Assembly: GCF_025641885.1 (NCBI RefSeq)
Contig: NZ_JAOTQN010000001.1
Coordinates: 558,001-622,000 of the forward strand
Direction of reading: 5' to 3'
Length of the DNA: 64,000 nt
Source: Pyrobaculum sp. 3827-6
GTDB lineage: Archaea; Thermoproteota; Thermoprotei; Thermoproteales; Thermoproteaceae
The notes under the pieces are model-generated. The model ran no database searches. It was given only the letters and a program-made list of their open reading frames with translations, and was not told where the DNA came from. Position 1 is the stretch's first letter. Each line of letters begins with the position of its first letter. A program made the translations under genes and the position numbers. Below are positions 2,961 to 59,713 of this stretch, one piece after another.

Positions 2961-3515
2961 GTGAAGGGGTGGGTTAAGGACCTGCTGTGGTTTGTGGGGA
3001 TTGTGGTTGCCCTCCTTGTGTACTCAGTCGCCACAGGAGTCACCTGGCCCATCGCGGTGGTGTCGTCATACTCCATGGAGCCCACGCTGAGGGTGGGCGA
3101 CTTCGTCTTTCTCGCGGGGGCCACCTGCACGTCGGTGGAGCCTGGGGACATTGTGGTGTACGTGGCTAGGAACCCCATGTGGCACGGTAGCTGGATTATA
3201 CACAGAGTTTATCAAAAAGTCGACGTCGGCGGCTGCGGCCTCGTGACGTGGGGGGACAACAACAACTTCCCCGATCAAGCCGCCGCCGGGGAGCCCCCGG
3301 TCTCTACAAACATCATTGGCAGAGTGGCGGTGGTTGTGCCGTACGTGGGGCTGTTCCCCCTGGTGGTTAGGCCCCAGGGGGTTGGGGGAGCGGCGATGGC
3401 GACATGGATTGGTAGGTTGCTCGTCTTCGGGGCGGCTACCTACGCCTTTTACTACTACTTCAAGTCTGCGGAGACGGCGCCTAGAAGGAGGAAGAAGAGG
3501 CGTAAATCTTTATAA
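2961..3515 (+). CDS. Archaeal signal peptidase I (S26B)
   Basis: Membrane serine protease of 184 residues that removes signal peptides from secreted proteins. An N-terminal TM helix (about 7-25) precedes the catalytic Ser in SYSMEPTL (Ser38). The His in IIHRV (His81) and the Asp in WGDNN (Asp99) give the Ser-His-Asp set of ER/archaeal S26B enzymes, instead of the bacterial Ser-Lys pair. A second TM near the C-terminus ends in a very basic tail. GTG 2961 is preferred over an upstream start because a TATA box at 2928-2939 sits about 28 nt before it. This is probably the housekeeping enzyme; a larger paralogue is in the pilus locus at 57-58 kb. Confidence 0.88.
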   Translation: MKGWVKDLLWFVGIVVALLVYSVATGVTWPIAVVSSYSMEPTLRVGDFVFLAGATCTSVEPGDIVVYVARNPMWHGSWIIHRVYQKVDVGGCGLVTWGDNNNFPDQAAAGEPPVSTNIIGRVAVVVPYVGLFPLVVRPQGVGGAAMATWIGRLLVFGAATYAFYYYFKSAETAPRRRKKRRKSL

Positions 3516-6386: not shown

Positions 6387-7022
6387 ATGGTCACGGTGAA
6401 GAAATACACCCTGCCACCGCTACCCTACGCCTACAACGCCCTAGAGCCCTACATATCCGAGGAGATAATGAAGCTCCACCACCAGAAGCACCACCAGGGC
6501 TACGTCAACGGGGCAAACGCCGCGCTTGAGAAGCTTGAGAGGTTTAGAAAAGGCGAGGCGCAGATAGACATAAGAGCCGTGTTGAGAGACCTCTCCTTCC
6601 ACCTCAACGGCCACATACTACACTCCATATTCTGGCCCAACATGGCGCCGCCCGGCAAGGGAGGCGGCAAGCCGGGGGGCAAGACGGCGGACTTAATCAA
6701 CCAGTTCTTCGGAAGCTTCGAGAAGTTCAAGGAGGAGTTCAGCCAAGCCGCCAAGAACGTAGAGGGCGTCGGCTGGGCCATCCTGGTATACGAGCCTCTA
6801 GCAGAGCAACTGGTGATCTTACAGGTGGAGAAGCACAACCTCATGCACGCCGCGGACGCCCAGGTCCTCCTAGCCCTCGACGTGTGGGAGCACGCCTACT
6901 ACCTCCAGTACAAAAACGACCGAGGTAGCTACGTAGACAACTGGTGGAACGTAGTCAACTGGGACGACGTGGAGAAGAGACTGCAGAAGGCCCTCAACGG
7001 CCACATAGCGCTTAAAATCTAA
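6387..7022 (+). CDS. sodA: Superoxide dismutase (Fe/Mn, possibly cambialistic)
   Basis: Converts superoxide to oxygen and hydrogen peroxide in the cytoplasm; 211 residues. N-terminal helices carry MKLHHQKHHQGY (first metal His), then NGHILHS (second His), and the C-terminal half has LDVWEHAYY with the last Asp and His ligands. Length and motifs match Pyrobaculum SODs. ATG 6387 rather than the in-frame ATG 6366 is chosen by TATA spacing. Metal choice cannot be read with certainty; P. aerophilum and P. calidifontis enzymes are described as using Mn or Fe. It suggests an oxygen-tolerant or facultatively aerobic host. Confidence 0.96.
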   Translation: MVTVKKYTLPPLPYAYNALEPYISEEIMKLHHQKHHQGYVNGANAALEKLERFRKGEAQIDIRAVLRDLSFHLNGHILHSIFWPNMAPPGKGGGKPGGKTADLINQFFGSFEKFKEEFSQAAKNVEGVGWAILVYEPLAEQLVILQVEKHNLMHAADAQVLLALDVWEHAYYLQYKNDRGSYVDNWWNVVNWDDVEKRLQKALNGHIALKI

Positions 7023-53163: not shown

Positions 53164-53967
53164 GTGAAGATATACGAGGTGAGGGTGAGGCGGGCCCTGG
53201 CGCCCTCCGCACTGCCCGAGTACGACTACTCCCTCAACCCGTACCTCGGCTGTCTCCACGGCTGTCTCTACTGCTACGCCATGGACATGACCAGGGGCCC
53301 GCCGGGAGCCCTCTGGGGCAGAGTGGTCTACGTCAAGGTCAACCTTCTCGAGGTGCTGAGGCGGGAGGCGGCGAGGCTTAGGCCCGGCGTCGTGGGGATG
53401 TCCACCATTACGGATCCCTACCAGCCCCCCGAGGCGAGGTACAGACTGGCGAGGGGGGCCCTGGAGATACTGGCCGAGGCCGGCTTCCACATCTCCATCC
53501 AGACAAAGTCCGGCCTGGTGGTCCGCGACCTGGACCTACTCACGAGGTACAGACACCGCGTCGACGTGGGTGTGACCATAACCACCATGAGGGACAAGGC
53601 TAGGATTCTCGAGCCGCTGGCCGCCCACCCCCTCGCCCGGATCCGCGCCGTCGAGAAGATAGCCGCCGCGGGGGTGAGGACGTGGGTTTTCCTAGGCCCC
53701 GTCATACCAGGCTTCAACGACGACCCGAGCGACCTGCGGGAGGTGGTGGAGGCCGCCCACGCCGCCAGCGCCGAGGTGGTATACGACAGATACCGCCCCA
53801 AGCCCCGCGCAGACGCAACCCTCGCCTCCACGTGGAGAAAAGTTGTGGCGACGCCGCAGTGGTGGGCGCGGACGAAAAAGACTATAGAGCAGATATGCGC
53901 CGAGGTAGGCGCCAAGTGCATAGACGTAGAAAAGGAGTGGCGAGCCGCTAGGCAGAGGCGCCGATAG
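53164..53967 (+). CDS. Radical SAM protein, SplB-like ('DNA repair photolyase' type)
   Basis: 267 residues. The [4Fe-4S]-binding CLHGCLYC (Cys30, 34, 37) follows YDYSLNPYLG, the SplB-like lead-in; GMSTITDPYQPPEARY and SIQTKSGLVVRDLDLL follow. Relatives include spore photoproduct lyase, but most archaeal members have unknown substrates. GTG 53164 is 25 nt after a GAATATAAAC box. Confidence 0.82.
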   Translation: MKIYEVRVRRALAPSALPEYDYSLNPYLGCLHGCLYCYAMDMTRGPPGALWGRVVYVKVNLLEVLRREAARLRPGVVGMSTITDPYQPPEARYRLARGALEILAEAGFHISIQTKSGLVVRDLDLLTRYRHRVDVGVTITTMRDKARILEPLAAHPLARIRAVEKIAAAGVRTWVFLGPVIPGFNDDPSDLREVVEAAHAASAEVVYDRYRPKPRADATLASTWRKVVATPQWWARTKKTIEQICAEVGAKCIDVEKEWRAARQRRR

Positions 53968-54039
53968 CCAGAGGCGCGGCGGGCGGTCTTCTGCATACAG
54001 CCCCAAGTGGGTTACTGTGAGGGTCGGTGTAAAAAATCT

Positions 54040-54276
54040 TTAAGACCCGACGCGAGAACCTCCCTTGAGAAACTGACTAAGCCAGAGGTATCTGGGCGAG
54101 AGTTTTATCAGCATGATCCTGGGGCTGGGCCTGTGTATCTCTAGAACTCCCGTCTTCTGCAACTTGTCGAGGTGACGGTAGAGGGTCTTGGGAGCCACCC
54201 CCACGCGTCTGGCCAGCTCTCTCAGCGTCAAGCCGTGGTGGTTGTGAGCCAGCGTCTTCACAATTCTCCACGGCAC
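54040..54276 (-). CDS. Winged-helix regulator (ArsR/MarR-like)
   Basis: 78 residues from GTG 54276: HGLTLRELARRVGVAPKTLYRHLDKL is a clear helix-turn-helix, followed by a wing (GVLEIHRPSPRIMLIKL). It is divergent from the second winged-helix gene and borders the pilus locus. It may bind the palindromes found there; this is inference from position. Confidence 0.72.
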   Translation of the reverse strand: MPWRIVKTLAHNHHGLTLRELARRVGVAPKTLYRHLDKLQKTGVLEIHRPSPRIMLIKLSPRYLWLSQFLKGGSRVGS

Positions 54277-54446
54277 GCTGTCGTCAAATATCTAGTTAAT
54301 CAAGTGAAGCAAATCGCCATCAAGCCTCTCCATAGATGAGATAGAGTGCTTATATAAGTACTTTACTTAACAAATGTTGCCGAAAAGAAACACTAGGCGC
54401 CCATAGAACAAAATCAAGTATATAAGAAGCAACGCGAGTATATTTC

Positions 54447-54683
54447 GTGGAAGAAAGAGATATAATTAGCTATCTTTCGCAAATCTTTCAAGACGAGCTG
54501 AAGTGGTGCATCATCCGACACCTTATGAAAAACGGCAAAGTCACCGTAAAAGACTTGGCAAGGCTCTGCAACACGGCGCCGAAAAAGGTGCTACAAGCTC
54601 TGAACGAAATGGAGGAAAAGGGCGCCGTTGAGATAACCATAGAACAAGGCAGGCAATACGCACAACTGAGAATCCATGGATAG
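54447..54683 (+). CDS. Winged-helix regulator of the pilus locus (candidate)
   Basis: 78 residues from GTG 54447, 26 nt after AGTATATAAG. DELKWCIIRHLMKNGKVTVKDLARLCNTAPKKVLQALNEM is a winged helix with a short wing (GAVEITIEQGRQYAQLRI). A GAAACA-AA-TGTTTC palindrome begins at the last base of its stop codon. Its two cysteines (WCII, LCNT) could sense redox or metal. Confidence 0.72.
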   Translation: MEERDIISYLSQIFQDELKWCIIRHLMKNGKVTVKDLARLCNTAPKKVLQALNEMEEKGAVEITIEQGRQYAQLRIHG

Positions 54684-54697
54684 AAACAAATGTTTCC
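54683..54697. promoter_or_regulatory. Palindrome GAAACA-AA-TGTTTC (pilus-locus operator 1)
   Basis: Perfect 6-bp arms around AA, about 35-50 nt upstream of the TATA (TTATATATC, 54734-54742) of the zinc-ribbon gene. A near-identical 16-bp palindrome is at 58544-58559 at the other end of the locus. A weaker AACAAATGTT occurs at about 54370-54379. Confidence 0.55.
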
Positions 54698-54760
54698 AAA
54701 AAGAAATTGTAACACGCCACAACAAACAAATCACTTATATATCAATACATCAAAGCACCT

Positions 54761-54931
54761 ATGATTGCAAAATTCCAACTACAAATCAAATGCCCAAACT
54801 GCCGCCGGTACTATATAGTAGAGACTAGAGACGCCCAGTGCCCCCACTGCGGCACTCGCTACACACTCCAACTACACATCCAGCTCGTACCTAAACAAAA
54901 AACAAAAAACGTAAGTCAAAAACTTAGTTAA
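54761..54931 (+). CDS. Small zinc-ribbon protein
   Basis: 56 residues, easily missed by length filters. Two CxxC knuckles, IKCPNCRRYY and AQCPHCGTRY, separated by 15 residues make a complete zinc ribbon, followed by a basic tail (PKQKTKN). ATG 54761 is 25 nt after CTTATATATC, the normal leaderless spacing. It ends within the last codons of the convergent TasA-like gene. Probable nucleic-acid or protein-binding regulator of the pilus locus. Confidence 0.72.
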   Translation: MIAKFQLQIKCPNCRRYYIVETRDAQCPHCGTRYTLQLHIQLVPKQKTKNVSQKLS

Positions 54932-55473
54932 GTAGCTTGTTTATATGTACAGGTGAAAGCCACGGTTGCACTAACCCCCTCTCTAGCATCTGGCCTCCCT
55001 CTAAGATAAACCACGACGTACAGCCGCTCCCCGGGTTTTAGAATAATTGCACGAGACCCACGCGCCGCCGGAGTGTCGCGATGTACATCTACATCTATCT
55101 GTACATCGAAATCAAAATCTATATCTTTAAATTCAAATCCGCCTGGAATAGATGTGAAATTACAGTTTGTTATTTTAATAGGCAAAGTTCCATCGTTGTA
55201 TAAACGAGCGTTTAGAGTGGCTCGTGCATTTGGATACATGTTGCTCACAGTTATGTACCAAGTCGGCGGCCCGTCGTTTCCCGGATCCGACCCGGCTAGA
55301 TAATAACTCACCTCTACATAGGAATCCTTAAGAGAAATTTGCACGTCTTTAAAATCGGCATCTATATAGCCGGTGCTTGCAATTTCAGACACTTTAGCAC
55401 CCTCCCCCCATGTGGCAAATGCCGCGGCTAACACCAACGCAGACACAACCCCTATCACTAGTCCCCTATACAT
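54928..55473 (-). CDS. TasA/AbpA-like bundling-pilus subunit paralogue (AbpX-like)
   Basis: 181 residues. Signal peptide (LVIGVVSALVLAAAFA), then the shared motif ASTGYIDADFKDV, the strand-rich core with GSDPGNDGPPTW and LYNDGTLPIKI, and the end FTCTYKQA. The same elements in the same order occur in the neighbour at 55.6 kb. An acidic insert (KDIDFDFDVQIDVDV) is unique to it. In P. calidifontis AbpA subunits polymerise by donor-strand complementation, like bacterial TasA; an accessory paralogue is also encoded. ATG 55473 has TTTATTTAC 25 nt upstream. Confidence 0.82.
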   Translation of the reverse strand: MYRGLVIGVVSALVLAAAFATWGEGAKVSEIASTGYIDADFKDVQISLKDSYVEVSYYLAGSDPGNDGPPTWYITVSNMYPNARATLNARLYNDGTLPIKITNCNFTSIPGGFEFKDIDFDFDVQIDVDVHRDTPAARGSRAIILKPGERLYVVVYLRGRPDAREGVSATVAFTCTYKQAT

Positions 55474-55614
55474 GAGAATACTCTAATACTAGTAAATAAA
55501 AAAATGGTGATACAGATGTTGAAAAAGAGAAACGATTCCAAACTAGTACCAGACTATTTAATTGATAAAATAAGTAGGGGAAAGAGGGGAGGAAAAAGGG
55601 GGTCTGAGTTGTTA

Positions 55615-56112
55615 TTAAGCGGTTTTAGGATATGGAACTGCTTGGCTGTATGTGCAGGTGACGGTGGCGGAGTATGTTTTCTGTTCTTCGACGTTATCAC
55701 CGGCGACGATTTTTAAAGTGGCGGATTGCGAACTTCCCGGCTTTAGGTCGTTAACGGTATCTGGGGATATTGTCACTGTTAGCTCAGATGGGGCCTTTAC
55801 CTCACACCTAATGTTTACTGGTATCGTGCCGTCGTTGTACATATCAAACGTCACATCGACGCTAGCGCCGGGGTAGGCATTGTTTATCGTCACGGTGAGG
55901 GTTGGGGGGCCGTCATTTCCAGAGTCGGAGCCAGTTGTTGACGTAGTCACCGTGACGTAATCACTATATGCCACATCTACATTTTGGAAGTCTAGGTCTA
56001 TGTATCCCGTGGATGCGCTGACTTGGATTGTGGCTGTTTCGCTCCATGCGGCGAATGCCACTGCTAGTGCTATTGCCAGCGCTGTTATTACTATCGTGGT
56101 TTTGGTTTTCAT
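55615..56112 (-). CDS. abpA: Archaeal bundling-pilus major subunit (AbpA, TasA-like)
   Basis: 165 residues. Signal peptide (TTIVITALAIALAVAFAAW), then SASTGYIDLDFQNVDV (the expected N-terminal donor strand), a jelly-roll core rich in Thr, Ser and Val (GSDSGNDGPPTLTV, MYNDGTIPVNI) and TCTYSQA near the end. Two Cys (NIRCEV and TCTY) may form a disulfide. Matches the TasA/camelysin-like AbpA of Pyrobaculum, which builds bundled extracellular filaments in biofilms. Cleavage is probably done by the S26B peptidase encoded at 57 kb. An ACTTTTACC box is 25 nt before ATG 56112. Confidence 0.85.
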   Translation of the reverse strand: MKTKTTIVITALAIALAVAFAAWSETATIQVSASTGYIDLDFQNVDVAYSDYVTVTTSTTGSDSGNDGPPTLTVTINNAYPGASVDVTFDMYNDGTIPVNIRCEVKAPSELTVTISPDTVNDLKPGSSQSATLKIVAGDNVEEQKTYSATVTCTYSQAVPYPKTA

Positions 56113-56213
56113 GAGTGCTGGGGTTTTGCGGCGGTAAAAGTCTTGTCCATCAAGTGTTATAGATGGGCAACATCTGTGGTTGAGGTATTATATACGTGTG
56201 TTTGCTCACTGGC

Positions 56214-57023
56214 GTGTTATTGCTTGTGTTGTTGCTTGGGGCTTTTGCCGCCGGGTGGAGTGTGTCTATTTTTTCGTATGGGGGCGGGTTTTCTCTTTAC
56301 AACGGCTCTCTGCTTATTGGAGAGTCTAGGGATCAGGCGATTTTTACAGTTGTGGTGCCTGGGGGTTGGCCTTTGGAGATTAGGTGGGGGAACCTCTCTA
56401 TTCCGCTAAACGTGTCTAGGGACGTCTTTGTTGCCCTGGGCGGACCGGGGAGTGGTTGCGACGTCTTTCTCTTCTACAGCATTGCCATGGACTTCACGAG
56501 CGCCGTGGTGATATGTGCCGAGCGTACTGAGGCTGTGCTGTCTGCGGGTGGCCTGCGCCGCGCCGTATCTCTCGACGCCGGTGTGTGGTACTTCACATAT
56601 CCGGGGAGGGTGAGAATTGCTGTTGAGTCCTCTTCTAAGCCTGTGAGGCTTCGGGGGGATGTCATTACGGTGGCGTATCCGCCTGTCGTCTACAGCGGCC
56701 TCCTCCTTAGATCTGGCCCTCCCGACGTTTATATACAGAACTGTAGCTATTTGGGGGGAAGAATATACAACCTCTCGGCGGCTTTGGCGGCGCAGAGGGA
56801 GTTTTACGAGAGGAGGGTGGCCGATCTCTCTGCTAGGGTTAAGGCGCTTTCGCAGGAGCTTGAGGCTGTGCGCGCGGAGCGGGATAGACTGCTCGTCGTG
56901 GGGCCCCAGTCTGTGGCTCTCTACGCCTCGGTGGCGGCTGGCGTGGCTGGGGGGGTATTTGCTGTCTACCTAGCCCGGCGTAGGCAGAAGCCGTTCTGGA
57001 GGGAGGATGTGGGGCGTAGGTGA
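56214..57023 (+). CDS. Membrane-anchored coiled-coil protein of the pilus locus
   Basis: About 269 residues from GTG 56214, placed 26 nt after TTATATA (56188-56194). Signal peptide (LLLVLLLGAFAAGW), a beta-rich ectodomain (about 20-185), a heptad coiled coil (FYERRVADLSARVKALSQELEAVRAERDRLL) and a C-terminal TM (VALYASVAAGVAGGVFAVYLARRR) with a basic cytoplasmic end. The topology suits a filament anchor or assembly factor. Its stop is one base before the signal-peptidase ATG. No family recognised. Confidence 0.72.
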   Translation: MLLLVLLLGAFAAGWSVSIFSYGGGFSLYNGSLLIGESRDQAIFTVVVPGGWPLEIRWGNLSIPLNVSRDVFVALGGPGSGCDVFLFYSIAMDFTSAVVICAERTEAVLSAGGLRRAVSLDAGVWYFTYPGRVRIAVESSSKPVRLRGDVITVAYPPVVYSGLLLRSGPPDVYIQNCSYLGGRIYNLSAALAAQREFYERRVADLSARVKALSQELEAVRAERDRLLVVGPQSVALYASVAAGVAGGVFAVYLARRRQKPFWREDVGRR

Positions 57024-57024
57024 T

Positions 57025-58137
57025 ATGGATTGGAGGTGGCTGTGGTTGCTCCTCCCAGTGTTTTTGCTTCTCCAGTATTTTGTTAGGGTGGATTTCTGGC
57101 TGTGGATCCCGGTGTGGGGCCTCCTCGCCGTGCTTTACTCCAGGTGGGCGCTCGGCTGTGAGGACGGAGGCCTCTCCAGGGGGGTGGCGACGGCGGCTGT
57201 GTACGGGGCGTTGCTGGTGGCTGTGGGTTGGGTATTTGGCTGGGAGGCTAGTGTCTATGGCGGCTCTCCAGCGGCGTCTGTCTTAAACGCCGTGTTTTTT
57301 GGCGTCTTGGCTCTGGCCAGGGAGCTGGCGCGCTCCGCCGCACTTTCTGCCGTGGGTAGTGGCGACTTGCGTGTATTTCTGGTCTCGGCGACGCTTGCCT
57401 TTGAGCCGGGGTGGCTCCGCCCGTCTCCGACTTGGGTCGGGACGGTGCTGGTGCCTTCGCTGGCTGTTTCCCTAGCAGCATCTTATCTACAGCTGAGGTA
57501 CGGGACCTTCGCCTCGCTACCTCTGGCCTTTGTATGGGGGGTGGCCCCCTACGTCGCGCCGGTTTGGGTGAAGGCTCCGTGGGTTTTTTACGGCCTTCTA
57601 CACATCCTCTTCCTCATAGGGGTGTTGCTGGACGTCTCCCCTCCAGGCTCAGTCGCCTGGAGGGATGTCTTGTTGGCGGGGGTGGTGGTTCTGGTTGTGG
57701 TTTTCGCGGCGGGTGGGCTGGGGGTGAGGCCCTTCGTAGTGGCCACTGGTAGCATGTCGCCGGTGTATATGCCAGGAGACGTTGTGCTGGTGGCACCTGC
57801 GAAGTCCATAAATGTGGGGGACGTGGTGTTGTACAGGGCCGACGTCGGCTACGTTCTTCACCGTGTTATTGATGTAAGGCGGGAGGGGCGGCAGATTTAC
57901 TACGTCACCAAAGGCGACGCCAACGCGTCTCCAGACCCTAGGCCGGTGCCGCGGGAGAACGTGGTGGGGGTTGCGGTGGGGAGGATTCCCTACGTGGGGT
58001 GGCCGGCGCTGTGGATCCGGGACCCGGCGGGGGGCTGGCCCTACCTAGCCGCCTTGTTGGGAGGGGTGGCCGGAGTAGAGCTCGCCCTTGGGAGGGTTAT
58101 CCGCCGCCGCAACGGCCTATCTTCTTCTCGAAGGTGA
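57025..58137 (+). CDS. Large S26B signal peptidase of the pilus locus (SipW-like)
   Basis: 370 residues. About six TM helices (1-215) precede the catalytic domain: Ser243 in ATGSMSPVYMPGDV, His279 in YVLHRVID, Asp298 in TKGDAN, then RIPYVGW and a final TM. ER-type Ser-His-Asp enzyme. In bacteria TasA is cut by SipW, a dedicated ER-type signal peptidase, so linkage to TasA-like genes argues for the same task here. The long N-terminal membrane domain is unusual against the 184-residue paralogue at 3 kb. Confidence 0.87.
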   Translation: MDWRWLWLLLPVFLLLQYFVRVDFWLWIPVWGLLAVLYSRWALGCEDGGLSRGVATAAVYGALLVAVGWVFGWEASVYGGSPAASVLNAVFFGVLALARELARSAALSAVGSGDLRVFLVSATLAFEPGWLRPSPTWVGTVLVPSLAVSLAASYLQLRYGTFASLPLAFVWGVAPYVAPVWVKAPWVFYGLLHILFLIGVLLDVSPPGSVAWRDVLLAGVVVLVVVFAAGGLGVRPFVVATGSMSPVYMPGDVVLVAPAKSINVGDVVLYRADVGYVLHRVIDVRREGRQIYYVTKGDANASPDPRPVPRENVVGVAVGRIPYVGWPALWIRDPAGGWPYLAALLGGVAGVELALGRVIRRRNGLSSSRR

Positions 58138-58510
58138 GGGTGCCGTTGGCGTAGAAGGTGTACTCCAAGTTTATGTTCCTGTCTTTGGGTAGTAGCTCTA
58201 CTGAATTTTTTTCTATGACTTGCCCCTTTGGAGTGAGACACAGGGGGACTGTGGCTTTGTTTTCGATTTTGATTTTTACCCGCGACATGGTGCAGTTGTA
58301 CATAGTGACGTATACGTGTGTCTGGTCGTAGTTTACGTACACTTTATTGGGCTGGCAGAAGCCTTTGCCGCCTCCGACTGGATTCGCGTTCTTAATCTCG
58401 TAACTCCAGCTCCCGGTAGTTGCCACTACGGAGACGGCGGCCTTATCTGCATAGACAGATGTGGCGACTGCAAGGGCAAGTGCTAAAACCACTGCAATAA
58501 TTAGCCTCAC
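58097..58510 (-). CDS. Third TasA-like secreted protein of the pilus locus
   Basis: 137 residues from GTG 58510, 25 nt after CTTTAAAAAA. Signal peptide (LIIAVVLALALAVATSVYA), then VVATTGSWSYEIKNANPV, which resembles the ASTGYIDxDF start of AbpA, and a strand-rich domain with four cysteines (GFCQP, YNCTM, PLCLT, GRCGG). It may be a minor subunit, cap or anchor. It converges on the signal-peptidase gene with 41 nt overlap. A perfect 16-bp palindrome stands upstream of its TATA. Confidence 0.68.
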   Translation of the reverse strand: MRLIIAVVLALALAVATSVYADKAAVSVVATTGSWSYEIKNANPVGGGKGFCQPNKVYVNYDQTHVYVTMYNCTMSRVKIKIENKATVPLCLTPKGQVIEKNSVELLPKDRNINLEYTFYANGTLTFEKKIGRCGGG

Positions 58511-58543
58511 GGATCTACGCAAAAAACCGTTTTTTAAAGACTG

Positions 58544-58559
58544 GGAAACATATGTTTCC
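58544..58559. promoter_or_regulatory. Perfect palindrome GGAAACATATGTTTCC (pilus-locus operator 2)
   Basis: A 16-bp perfect palindrome directly upstream of the TATA box (about 58527-58540 on the minus strand) of the third TasA-like gene. It shares GAAACA-N2-TGTTTC with 54683-54696. Confidence 0.6.
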
Positions 58560-58635
58560 GAGCCGCGGGGCTGGTACCTAGCAACTTAGGCATGTATACA
58601 GGGGTAGCCCAGATTTTCCTAAAGTTCATAAATAC

Positions 58636-59031
58636 GTGTGTGGAAAGTTTTTGTGTTTTGAGACTGCGAGGGAAATTCTACGGTATGCTGGAGAGGAGCT
58701 GGAGCGGGCGGTGAGAACTCGGGATGTTTTTCTGTATAGGAACGCCGCTGATAAGGCTTTTCTAGCTCTGGTGGTGGCGGTCAACGAGTACTTGAAGGCT
58801 GTTGTGGGGGTTGTGCCTAGCAACCACTCCGAGAGGAGGAGGCTTCTCCGGGAGGTGGGGAGGGAGGATCTGAGGGCGTTGTACAGCGACTTGATGAAGA
58901 TGCTTCACGAGGAGGCCTTCTACGAAGGGGTGTACCAGCCAGATGAGGTTAGGTACGCTGTGGATAAGGTTAGAAGCGTTGTTGAGGAGCTAGAGGCTGA
59001 GGTGAGGAGGCGCCTACCTCCTTCTGGATAG
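58636..59031 (+). CDS. HEPN-like/PaREP1-type helical protein
   Basis: 131 residues (or 126 from TTG 58651, which better fits the TATA at about 58624-58632). All-helical: FETAREILRYAGEELERAV, LYRNAADKAFLALVVAVNEYLKAV, NHSERRRLL. The 'NAADKAF-AL' helix also occurs in the protein at 63.1 kb (QNAANKAFMALKAL). This is the Pyrobaculum-expanded PaREP1/HEPN-like class with no known function. No nucleotidyltransferase partner is adjacent. Confidence 0.65.
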   Translation: MCGKFLCFETAREILRYAGEELERAVRTRDVFLYRNAADKAFLALVVAVNEYLKAVVGVVPSNHSERRRLLREVGREDLRALYSDLMKMLHEEAFYEGVYQPDEVRYAVDKVRSVVEELEAEVRRRLPPSG

Positions 59032-59389
59032 CCCCAGCGTCGCATATGCCGAGCCACGGCGGCTACCGCAGTGGCTGTGGCAACTTGTCTCTTCCCACAT
59101 GCCAGGTCGGCGATCGCCACGGTCTGCGTCACTGTCGCTGGCGCGGGCCGTGGGTGGCCGCTGGCTCACTTTGAAAAAGGGGGATGGTTGGCTCGGCCGT
59201 GGCTGGGGACGTGGCTATAGAGATCTGGGAGTTTTGGAATGGTTTGTCCGTGAAGAATAGGTGTTGGGGCTGTGGGTTTTCTCGGCTCTTATTTTGTCTT
59301 TTAGTTTCTGCGTCAGGTTTGGCGTGCGGTGGTTGGCTCCGCACGCCGTTTCACCGCCTGCACATATGCATTAATATGGCTAGTGTTTT
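59032..59389. other. 358-nt stretch without a recognised gene
   Basis: GC-rich left half, then a TG-rich right half. A GCATTAATATGG box at about 59366-59377 is the promoter of the next gene. Short frames on both strands are unconvincing; no tRNA, C/D box pair or strong inverted repeat seen. Confidence 0.4.
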
Positions 59390-59713
59390 GTGGACGTGGC
59401 TGTGATTAACCCGGGAGATAAGGCGAGGTTTAGTGAGGACTCTACTGCGTTGGTGTATAAAAACGCCGAAGCGGTGGCTAGGCGGCTGGGGGTTGAGCTG
59501 GTGGTGGGCGGCGACGTGCTGAGGATCGGGGATTTTGAAGCTAGGTGGGCCGGGGGGAGGCTTGTGGTGGGGGATTTTTCTGCTGAGGTTGATGTGGAGC
59601 AGTGGGAGGCCTTCGTGTCTCTTGTGCTTAGCTACTTCGTGGGGGTGGGGCGGCCGCCTGACGGGGCGGCTCTGCGGGATATTCTCTTCGCCGTGGGCGT
59701 CTCGACGGGGTGA
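59390..59713 (+). CDS. Small hypothetical protein
   Basis: 107 residues from GTG 59390 (GTG 59396 also fits the TATA). Alpha/beta: AVARRLGVELVVGGDVLRIGDFEARW, then EQWEAFVSLVLSYFVGV. No TM or known motif. Possibly co-regulated with the following 60-residue gene. Confidence 0.55.
   Translation: MDVAVINPGDKARFSEDSTALVYKNAEAVARRLGVELVVGGDVLRIGDFEARWAGGRLVVGDFSAEVDVEQWEAFVSLVLSYFVGVGRPPDGAALRDILFAVGVSTG

Follow-up and report, generated by a model that had tools for sequence, protein, structure and literature searches.

A probable AbpX-type pilus cassette with a SipW-like peptidase in an exchangeable chromosomal slot of Pyrobaculum

Which bundling-pilus system is encoded by a cluster of secreted-protein, signal-peptidase and regulator genes in Pyrobaculum sp. 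3827-6, and how did it come to lie where it does? The cluster occupies positions 54040–58560 of a 64 000-nucleotide stretch of DNA (hereafter the window; positions 558,001 to 622,000 of contig NZ_JAOTQN010000001.1, assembly GCF_025641885.1) from a genome of 2.30 Mb. A preliminary description, made from the sequence alone, had taken it for a bundling-pilus locus of the AbpA system with its own peptidase. All the features named there are present in the window, including the sequence motifs, the 370-residue endoplasmic-reticulum (ER)-type peptidase, two winged-helix genes and a zinc ribbon, in the order HTH1(−), HTH2(+), zinc ribbon(+), subA(−), subB(−), coiled-coil membrane protein(+), SipW-like peptidase(+), and subC(−). 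We consider it quite probable that the locus is a horizontally swappable cassette for a donor-strand pilus of AbpX type (TasA-like), equipped with a SipW-like peptidase and governed by a resident winged-helix regulator.

The two pilin-like genes identify the system. In phmmer searches against PDB sequences, subB (55615–56112, minus strand), the probable major pilin, matched AbpX (“Archaeal bundling protein X”) at E = 4.9e-12, and subA (54928–55473, minus strand) matched it at E = 6e-7 (PDB 9sj2). A profile built from six pilin sequences matched AbpX at E = 6.5e-16 over positions 22–168, nearly the whole of the protein. By homology, subA and subB are thus AbpX-family pilins over most of their length; they also have the motifs ASTGYIDxDF, GNDGPPT, and YNDGT in common, and subC carries ATTGSWSYEI. 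AbpX forms an ABP-like, donor-strand-exchanged bundling fibre in Pyrodictium abyssi, and TasA, ABP, and ABPx have been grouped as donor-strand fibres (PMC11952670). We located the AbpX gene in one sampled genome (G272), where a 220-aa precursor containing the aligned AbpX sequence (...TYA-QWSETLSL...) is followed directly by a 380-aa SipW-like peptidase. The AbpX fibre (PDB 9sj2 and 9rhp) and the window locus therefore agree in a nearly full-length homologous pilin, in a Trp at the second mature residue and in an adjoining long SipW-like peptidase, but AbpX is the sole pilin beside SipW in its locus, whereas in the window the peptidase is accompanied by a pair of pilins together with subC and a coiled-coil membrane protein.

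Orthology of subA and subB to AbpA, as the preliminary description proposed, had in its favor that both systems occur in the same genus, that both involve small secreted proteins and that TasA falls into one class with ABP and ABPx (PMC11952670). A protein of genome G002 matches PDB entry 7UEG from P. calidifontis at 100% identity over 204 aa; the entry is recorded just as “Pilin”, and we take it to be AbpA. AbpA showed no sequence match to subA, subB, or AbpX in either direction, and the pilin models found nothing in P. calidifontis. The AbpA neighborhood (L101, 785–6826) is also very different: it contains secreted proteins of 410 aa and 754 aa, the latter with an AbpA-like N-terminus, two small transmembrane proteins, a GTPase, and a winged-helix transmembrane protein, and it has no SipW, coiled-coil anchor, subC, or HTH1. 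Membership in the AbpA system is accordingly refuted as orthology, which leaves a true AbpA-type locus highly improbable, and the suggestion that the anchor, subC, and HTH genes accompany abpA, read literally, fails with it. In the literature, AbpA pili are reported to be TasA-like donor-strand bundling pili, and AbpA may share a TasA-like architecture with subA, subB, and AbpX; a shared fold could reflect a deep common origin. We also think it unlikely that SipW cuts subA and subB for a role outside filaments, as Ig-like secreted proteins that are soluble or associated with the surface layer. Ig-like Pfam matches of a generic kind do occur (NPCBM_assoc, E = 5e-7), and the window pilins are known from their genes alone, but the profile match spans nearly all of AbpX, a solved fibre subunit, and tandem copies recur beside SipW across the phylum.

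The peptidase gene (57025–58137, plus strand, starting at ATG 57025) encodes a protein of 370 aa with conserved Ser, His, and Asp motifs and an extra N-terminal region with several transmembrane (TM) segments. It passes the archaeal signal peptidase model TIGR02228 (E = 5e-26) and matches SEC11A (E = 9e-8), and its match to the curated SipW model NF046067 (E = 8e-18) fails the cut-off, at 64.6 bits against 190. A separate housekeeping signal peptidase lies intact at 2961–3515, so that the idea of the genome lacking one was rejected; with the AbpX homology, this upholds the earlier view of a locus of bundling-pilus type that has an ER-type peptidase of its own. Short signal peptidases occur in nearly all Thermoproteales genomes, and the long SipW-like form in a minority: the window genome (G000), G003, G005, G006, and G018. 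SipW-like domains were also observed in ∼520-aa frames of three genomes that gave no pilin profile match (G025:C56, G026:C203, and G027:C23; family f3).

A Trp directly follows the signal core in 84 of 85 pilins of the comparison set, with AFA-AW in subB and AFA-TW in subA. In Bacillus, the P2′ residue of TasA is Phe, and TasA requires SipW (PMC10269814). The pilin Trp would lie at or near P2′, and a similar requirement would account for the dedicated peptidase of the window. Like the window locus, the Bacillus TasA-TapA-SipW system has an ER-type signal peptidase of its own, several filament proteins that are secreted, and an aromatic residue at P2′. It differs in lacking any strong sequence match, in that the TapA match of subC is weak and unrepeated, and in that the candidate tether of the window is a coiled-coil TM protein.

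The pairing of pilin and peptidase extends well beyond the window. The pilin profile matched 41 of 398 sampled Thermoproteota genomes, representing 25 genera. A SipW-like peptidase stood beside one to three pilins in 33 of the 37 neighborhoods fetched outside three close relatives, and some of the remaining neighborhoods end at contig ends. By these counts, the pilin–long SipW pair is a widespread module. Most of the related loci (24) have a DUF5305 protein as membrane partner. This DUF5305-type cassette, exemplified by locus L024 of genome G003, shares tandem pilins and a long SipW with the window, and in G003 also the chromosomal slot and the palindrome upstream of the pilins; it differs in having DUF5305 in place of the coiled-coil anchor, a SipW of another clade and no subC homologue detectable by hidden Markov model. 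Members of a family of ∼200–280-aa proteins with a winged-helix-like region, distinct from HTH1, were seen near the pilus genes in 21 of the 37 loci (L131–L163). The individual parts of the window locus are of known kind. What varies is the membrane partner and third subunit, and the cassette occupies a swappable slot and has a locus-specific promoter element. The literature searched, which excluded the main AbpA and AbpX papers, held no report of this variant composition, the slot exchange, or the shared operator.

The window gene set itself recurs in two other Pyrobaculum genomes, P. oguniense TE7 (G006) and G005, presumably P. neutrophilum (loci L022/L023). Orthologues of subA (44–48% identical), subB (56–60%), the anchor (51–53%), SipW, and subC (∼40%) are co-located there, with identities of 39–60% overall, and because these five stay together in two further genomes the set is not a chance assembly.

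Comparison with the sister-species genome G003 shows that the cassette has been replaced. Flanking identity by blastn is 97.6% over 4.7 kb left of position 53944 and 92.7% over 2.4 kb right of 59396, but within the swapped segment (53945–59395) only the HTH1–HTH2–zinc ribbon stretch (54078–54886) aligns, at 68%. In the same slot, which lies between a radical-SAM gene and an NRAMP gene, G003 carries four pilins of another subgroup, a SipW that is 32% identical in alignment, and DUF5305. In a SipW tree, the window peptidase joins those of P. oguniense and G005 (support 100/100), and that of G003 joins those of G018, G330, and G193 (100/99); the deeper order is unsure and branches are long. Separate SipW clades together with the replaced segment imply one slot and two cassettes of separate descent. 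The P. oguniense cassette is linked to the same flanking genes, but rearranged. In G018 (L164; C134:22000–36000), pilin fragments occur in either orientation next to a strong palindrome site at 6895, and one fragment has an internal TAG; they look like recombined or decayed pilin genes. We tentatively propose, at nearly even odds, that a single Pyrobaculum slot exchanges separately evolved donor-strand cassettes horizontally, while the resident winged-helix regulator and its palindromic site stay in command. If so, any cassette working in the slot must carry or gain a palindrome site, the locus would work as a cassette system for biofilm fibres of archaea, similar to those of surface antigens, and wholesale exchange would explain differences in fibre type between close relatives.

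The promoter element is a palindrome, GGAAACANNTGTTTCC (GGAAACA-NN-TGTTTCC). A perfect copy, GGAAACATATGTTTCC, occupies 58544–58559, 34–49 bp upstream of the subC start and directly upstream of its TATA box, and a copy with one mismatch precedes the zinc-ribbon gene (54682–54697). Degenerate copies lie between the divergent HTH1 and HTH2 promoters (54366–54381) and upstream of subA (55508–55523), and a weak one between the divergent subB and anchor promoters (56166–56181). At no more than one mismatch, the motif occurs only at 58544 and 54682 in the 2.3-Mb genome. P. oguniense has a single such place, a perfect copy inside its pilus locus before the zinc ribbon, and reversed-pattern controls gave zero matches in both genomes. 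One more match in the genus, in G010, falls inside an unrelated reading frame. Weaker copies precede subC, subA, and subB in P. oguniense and a pilin in G018; in G003 they lie before all four pilins as well as before HTH1/HTH2 and the zinc ribbon. Many sites start 48–52 bp before the start codon, with a TATA box immediately after. Outside Thermoproteaceae, the palindrome was not clearly present. The two sites in the alignable HTH1–zinc ribbon stretch have a common origin with their counterparts in G003; those before the pilins and subC were kept or gained separately, because their DNA cannot be aligned between the cassettes.

Two winged-helix genes are candidates for the cognate regulator. For HTH1 (54040–54276, minus strand, from a GTG restart; Pfam HTH_24, E = 7e-8), an orthologue stands beside the pilus genes in each of the five further Thermoproteaceae loci of the comparison (L022, L023, L024, L025, and L027), and more distant HTH1-like genes occur at several loci elsewhere. 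The HTH1 relative HTH2 (54447–54683, plus strand; HTH_24, E = 1e-8) is found in fewer loci, with a 45% identical orthologue in G003 and weaker matches to HTH1 genes. Because its orthologues accompany the pilus genes, HTH1 is the best candidate for the palindrome-binding regulator.

The remaining two proteins are more restricted. The coiled-coil membrane protein (56214–57023, plus strand) has a predicted signal peptide, a strand-rich ectodomain, a coiled coil, a C-terminal TM segment, and a basic tail; judged from orthologues and promoters, it probably starts at GTG 56214 as a leaderless gene, with a TATA box ∼26 bp upstream. Clear homologues were found only in G005 and G006, and one weak match in G068 spans just the coiled-coil and TM part. 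It never shares a locus with DUF5305 in the set compared, and homology to DUF5305 was rejected since hhalign found no profile similarity. The Cys-containing secreted protein subC (58097–58510, minus strand, from GTG 58510, a start refined from orthologues and promoters like that of SipW) is likewise restricted: apart from its clear homologues in G005 and G006, it gave one weak match, in G036 (E = 1.9e-4). Against the pilin profile, hhalign aligned 84 columns of it at 27% identity (P = 7.8e-6, probability 84%). A third pilus subunit is a reasonable, if tentative, reading of this divergent protein, an assembly factor being the other. Going by homologue counts, neither the anchor nor subC is a general part of such loci; they belong to three Pyrobaculum species, the window's included. 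The preliminary description had put both forward as parts of the pilus module; subC does look like a divergent subunit, and the coiled-coil protein is a candidate anchor. Six small secreted proteins of other loci (L142, L144, L147, L150, L152, and L155), all within 1.3 kb of a SipW or pilin gene, carry a TGxW motif after the signal; they are suggestive of subC counterparts, and the profile comparison with subC spans just 24 columns.

In the mechanism that we favor, the signal peptides of subB and subA, which end in a small residue with Trp after it, would direct export, and the SipW-like membrane peptidase would cut so that Trp takes the second place in the mature protein. The strand set free at the N-terminus would complete the sheet of a neighboring subunit, giving a stable fibre able to bundle, with subC as a divergent minor subunit acting as starter or cap. 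The coiled-coil protein, in the place of DUF5305, would tether the fibre or organize assembly at the membrane. The palindrome upstream of the TATA box would most likely be bound by HTH1 (or HTH2), co-regulating the cassette, probably as an activator, and the cassette would have been acquired as a block in a slot where the sister species has a different one.

Several observations weigh against parts of this picture. The Camelysin/TasA domain PF12389 is matched weakly by five of the six pilins, below the cut-off (best E = 0.014), and subC neither has a confident Foldseek match in the PDB for its predicted fold (predicted local distance difference test, pLDDT, 71) nor shares with its orthologues the NCBIfam TapA match (E = 0.059), which we do not claim. 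The subB–subA pair (54928–56112) is inverted relative to anchor and SipW, although the four genes are colinear in P. oguniense and G005; no convincing inverted repeats able to flip the pair were found at its borders. In the full-length HTH1 frame (ATG 54333), codon 14 is a TAG stop (54292–54294), whereas neither the P. oguniense nor the G003 frame has a stop there, and only the restart at GTG 54276 is open. The stop may remove an N-terminal helix and leave HTH2 as the working copy, or it may be a sequencing error. The subB, anchor, and SipW promoters of the window have weak palindrome sites or none. With a position weight matrix trained without the window sites, four locus sites ranked as the top four in 64 kb, of which the locus makes up 7.3% (0.073^4 = 2.8e-5), but the sites from relatives had been collected with the window motif in mind, so that this ranking is not fully independent. 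The anchor's fold model is poor (pLDDT 51), its long helix at 187–256 lying in a low-confidence model.

These points bear most on regulation and anchoring. A palindrome serving as a repressor site, or as the site of an unrelated global regulator, is a possibility that we rate as clearly the lesser one; winged-helix proteins often repress, and the sites persist here though HTH1 is broken. A global regulator fits poorly with near-perfect sites confined genome-wide to the pilus locus. A position directly upstream of the TATA box, such as these sites have, is more typical of archaeal activators, and it is for this reason that we favor activation by HTH1 or HTH2. The case is more balanced for the coiled-coil protein, which has a substantial, if somewhat smaller, chance of being an assembly chaperone, an adhesin, or a sensor: it has no homology to DUF5305 or pilins and its fold is poorly modeled, but the signal peptide, the C-terminal TM segment with basic tail, the membrane-proximal coiled coil, and the direct coupling of its gene to SipW argue for an anchor.

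Our results set apart two bundling-pilus systems that are easily lumped, AbpA and AbpX/SipW, and link the latter to Bacillus TasA-SipW as its widespread archaeal counterpart. They also point to the base of the pilus as the likely place of action of the uncharacterized DUF5305 family, and the locus-specific DNA site makes the regulation of an archaeal biofilm fibre directly testable.

Two smaller genes also lie in the segment. A PaREP1-family gene (58636–59031) adjoins subC inside the swapped region. The small zinc-ribbon protein (54761–54931, plus strand), whose zinc-ribbon Pfam matches are below threshold, has orthologues in G003 (67% identical) and P. oguniense (38%), both adjoining pilus genes.

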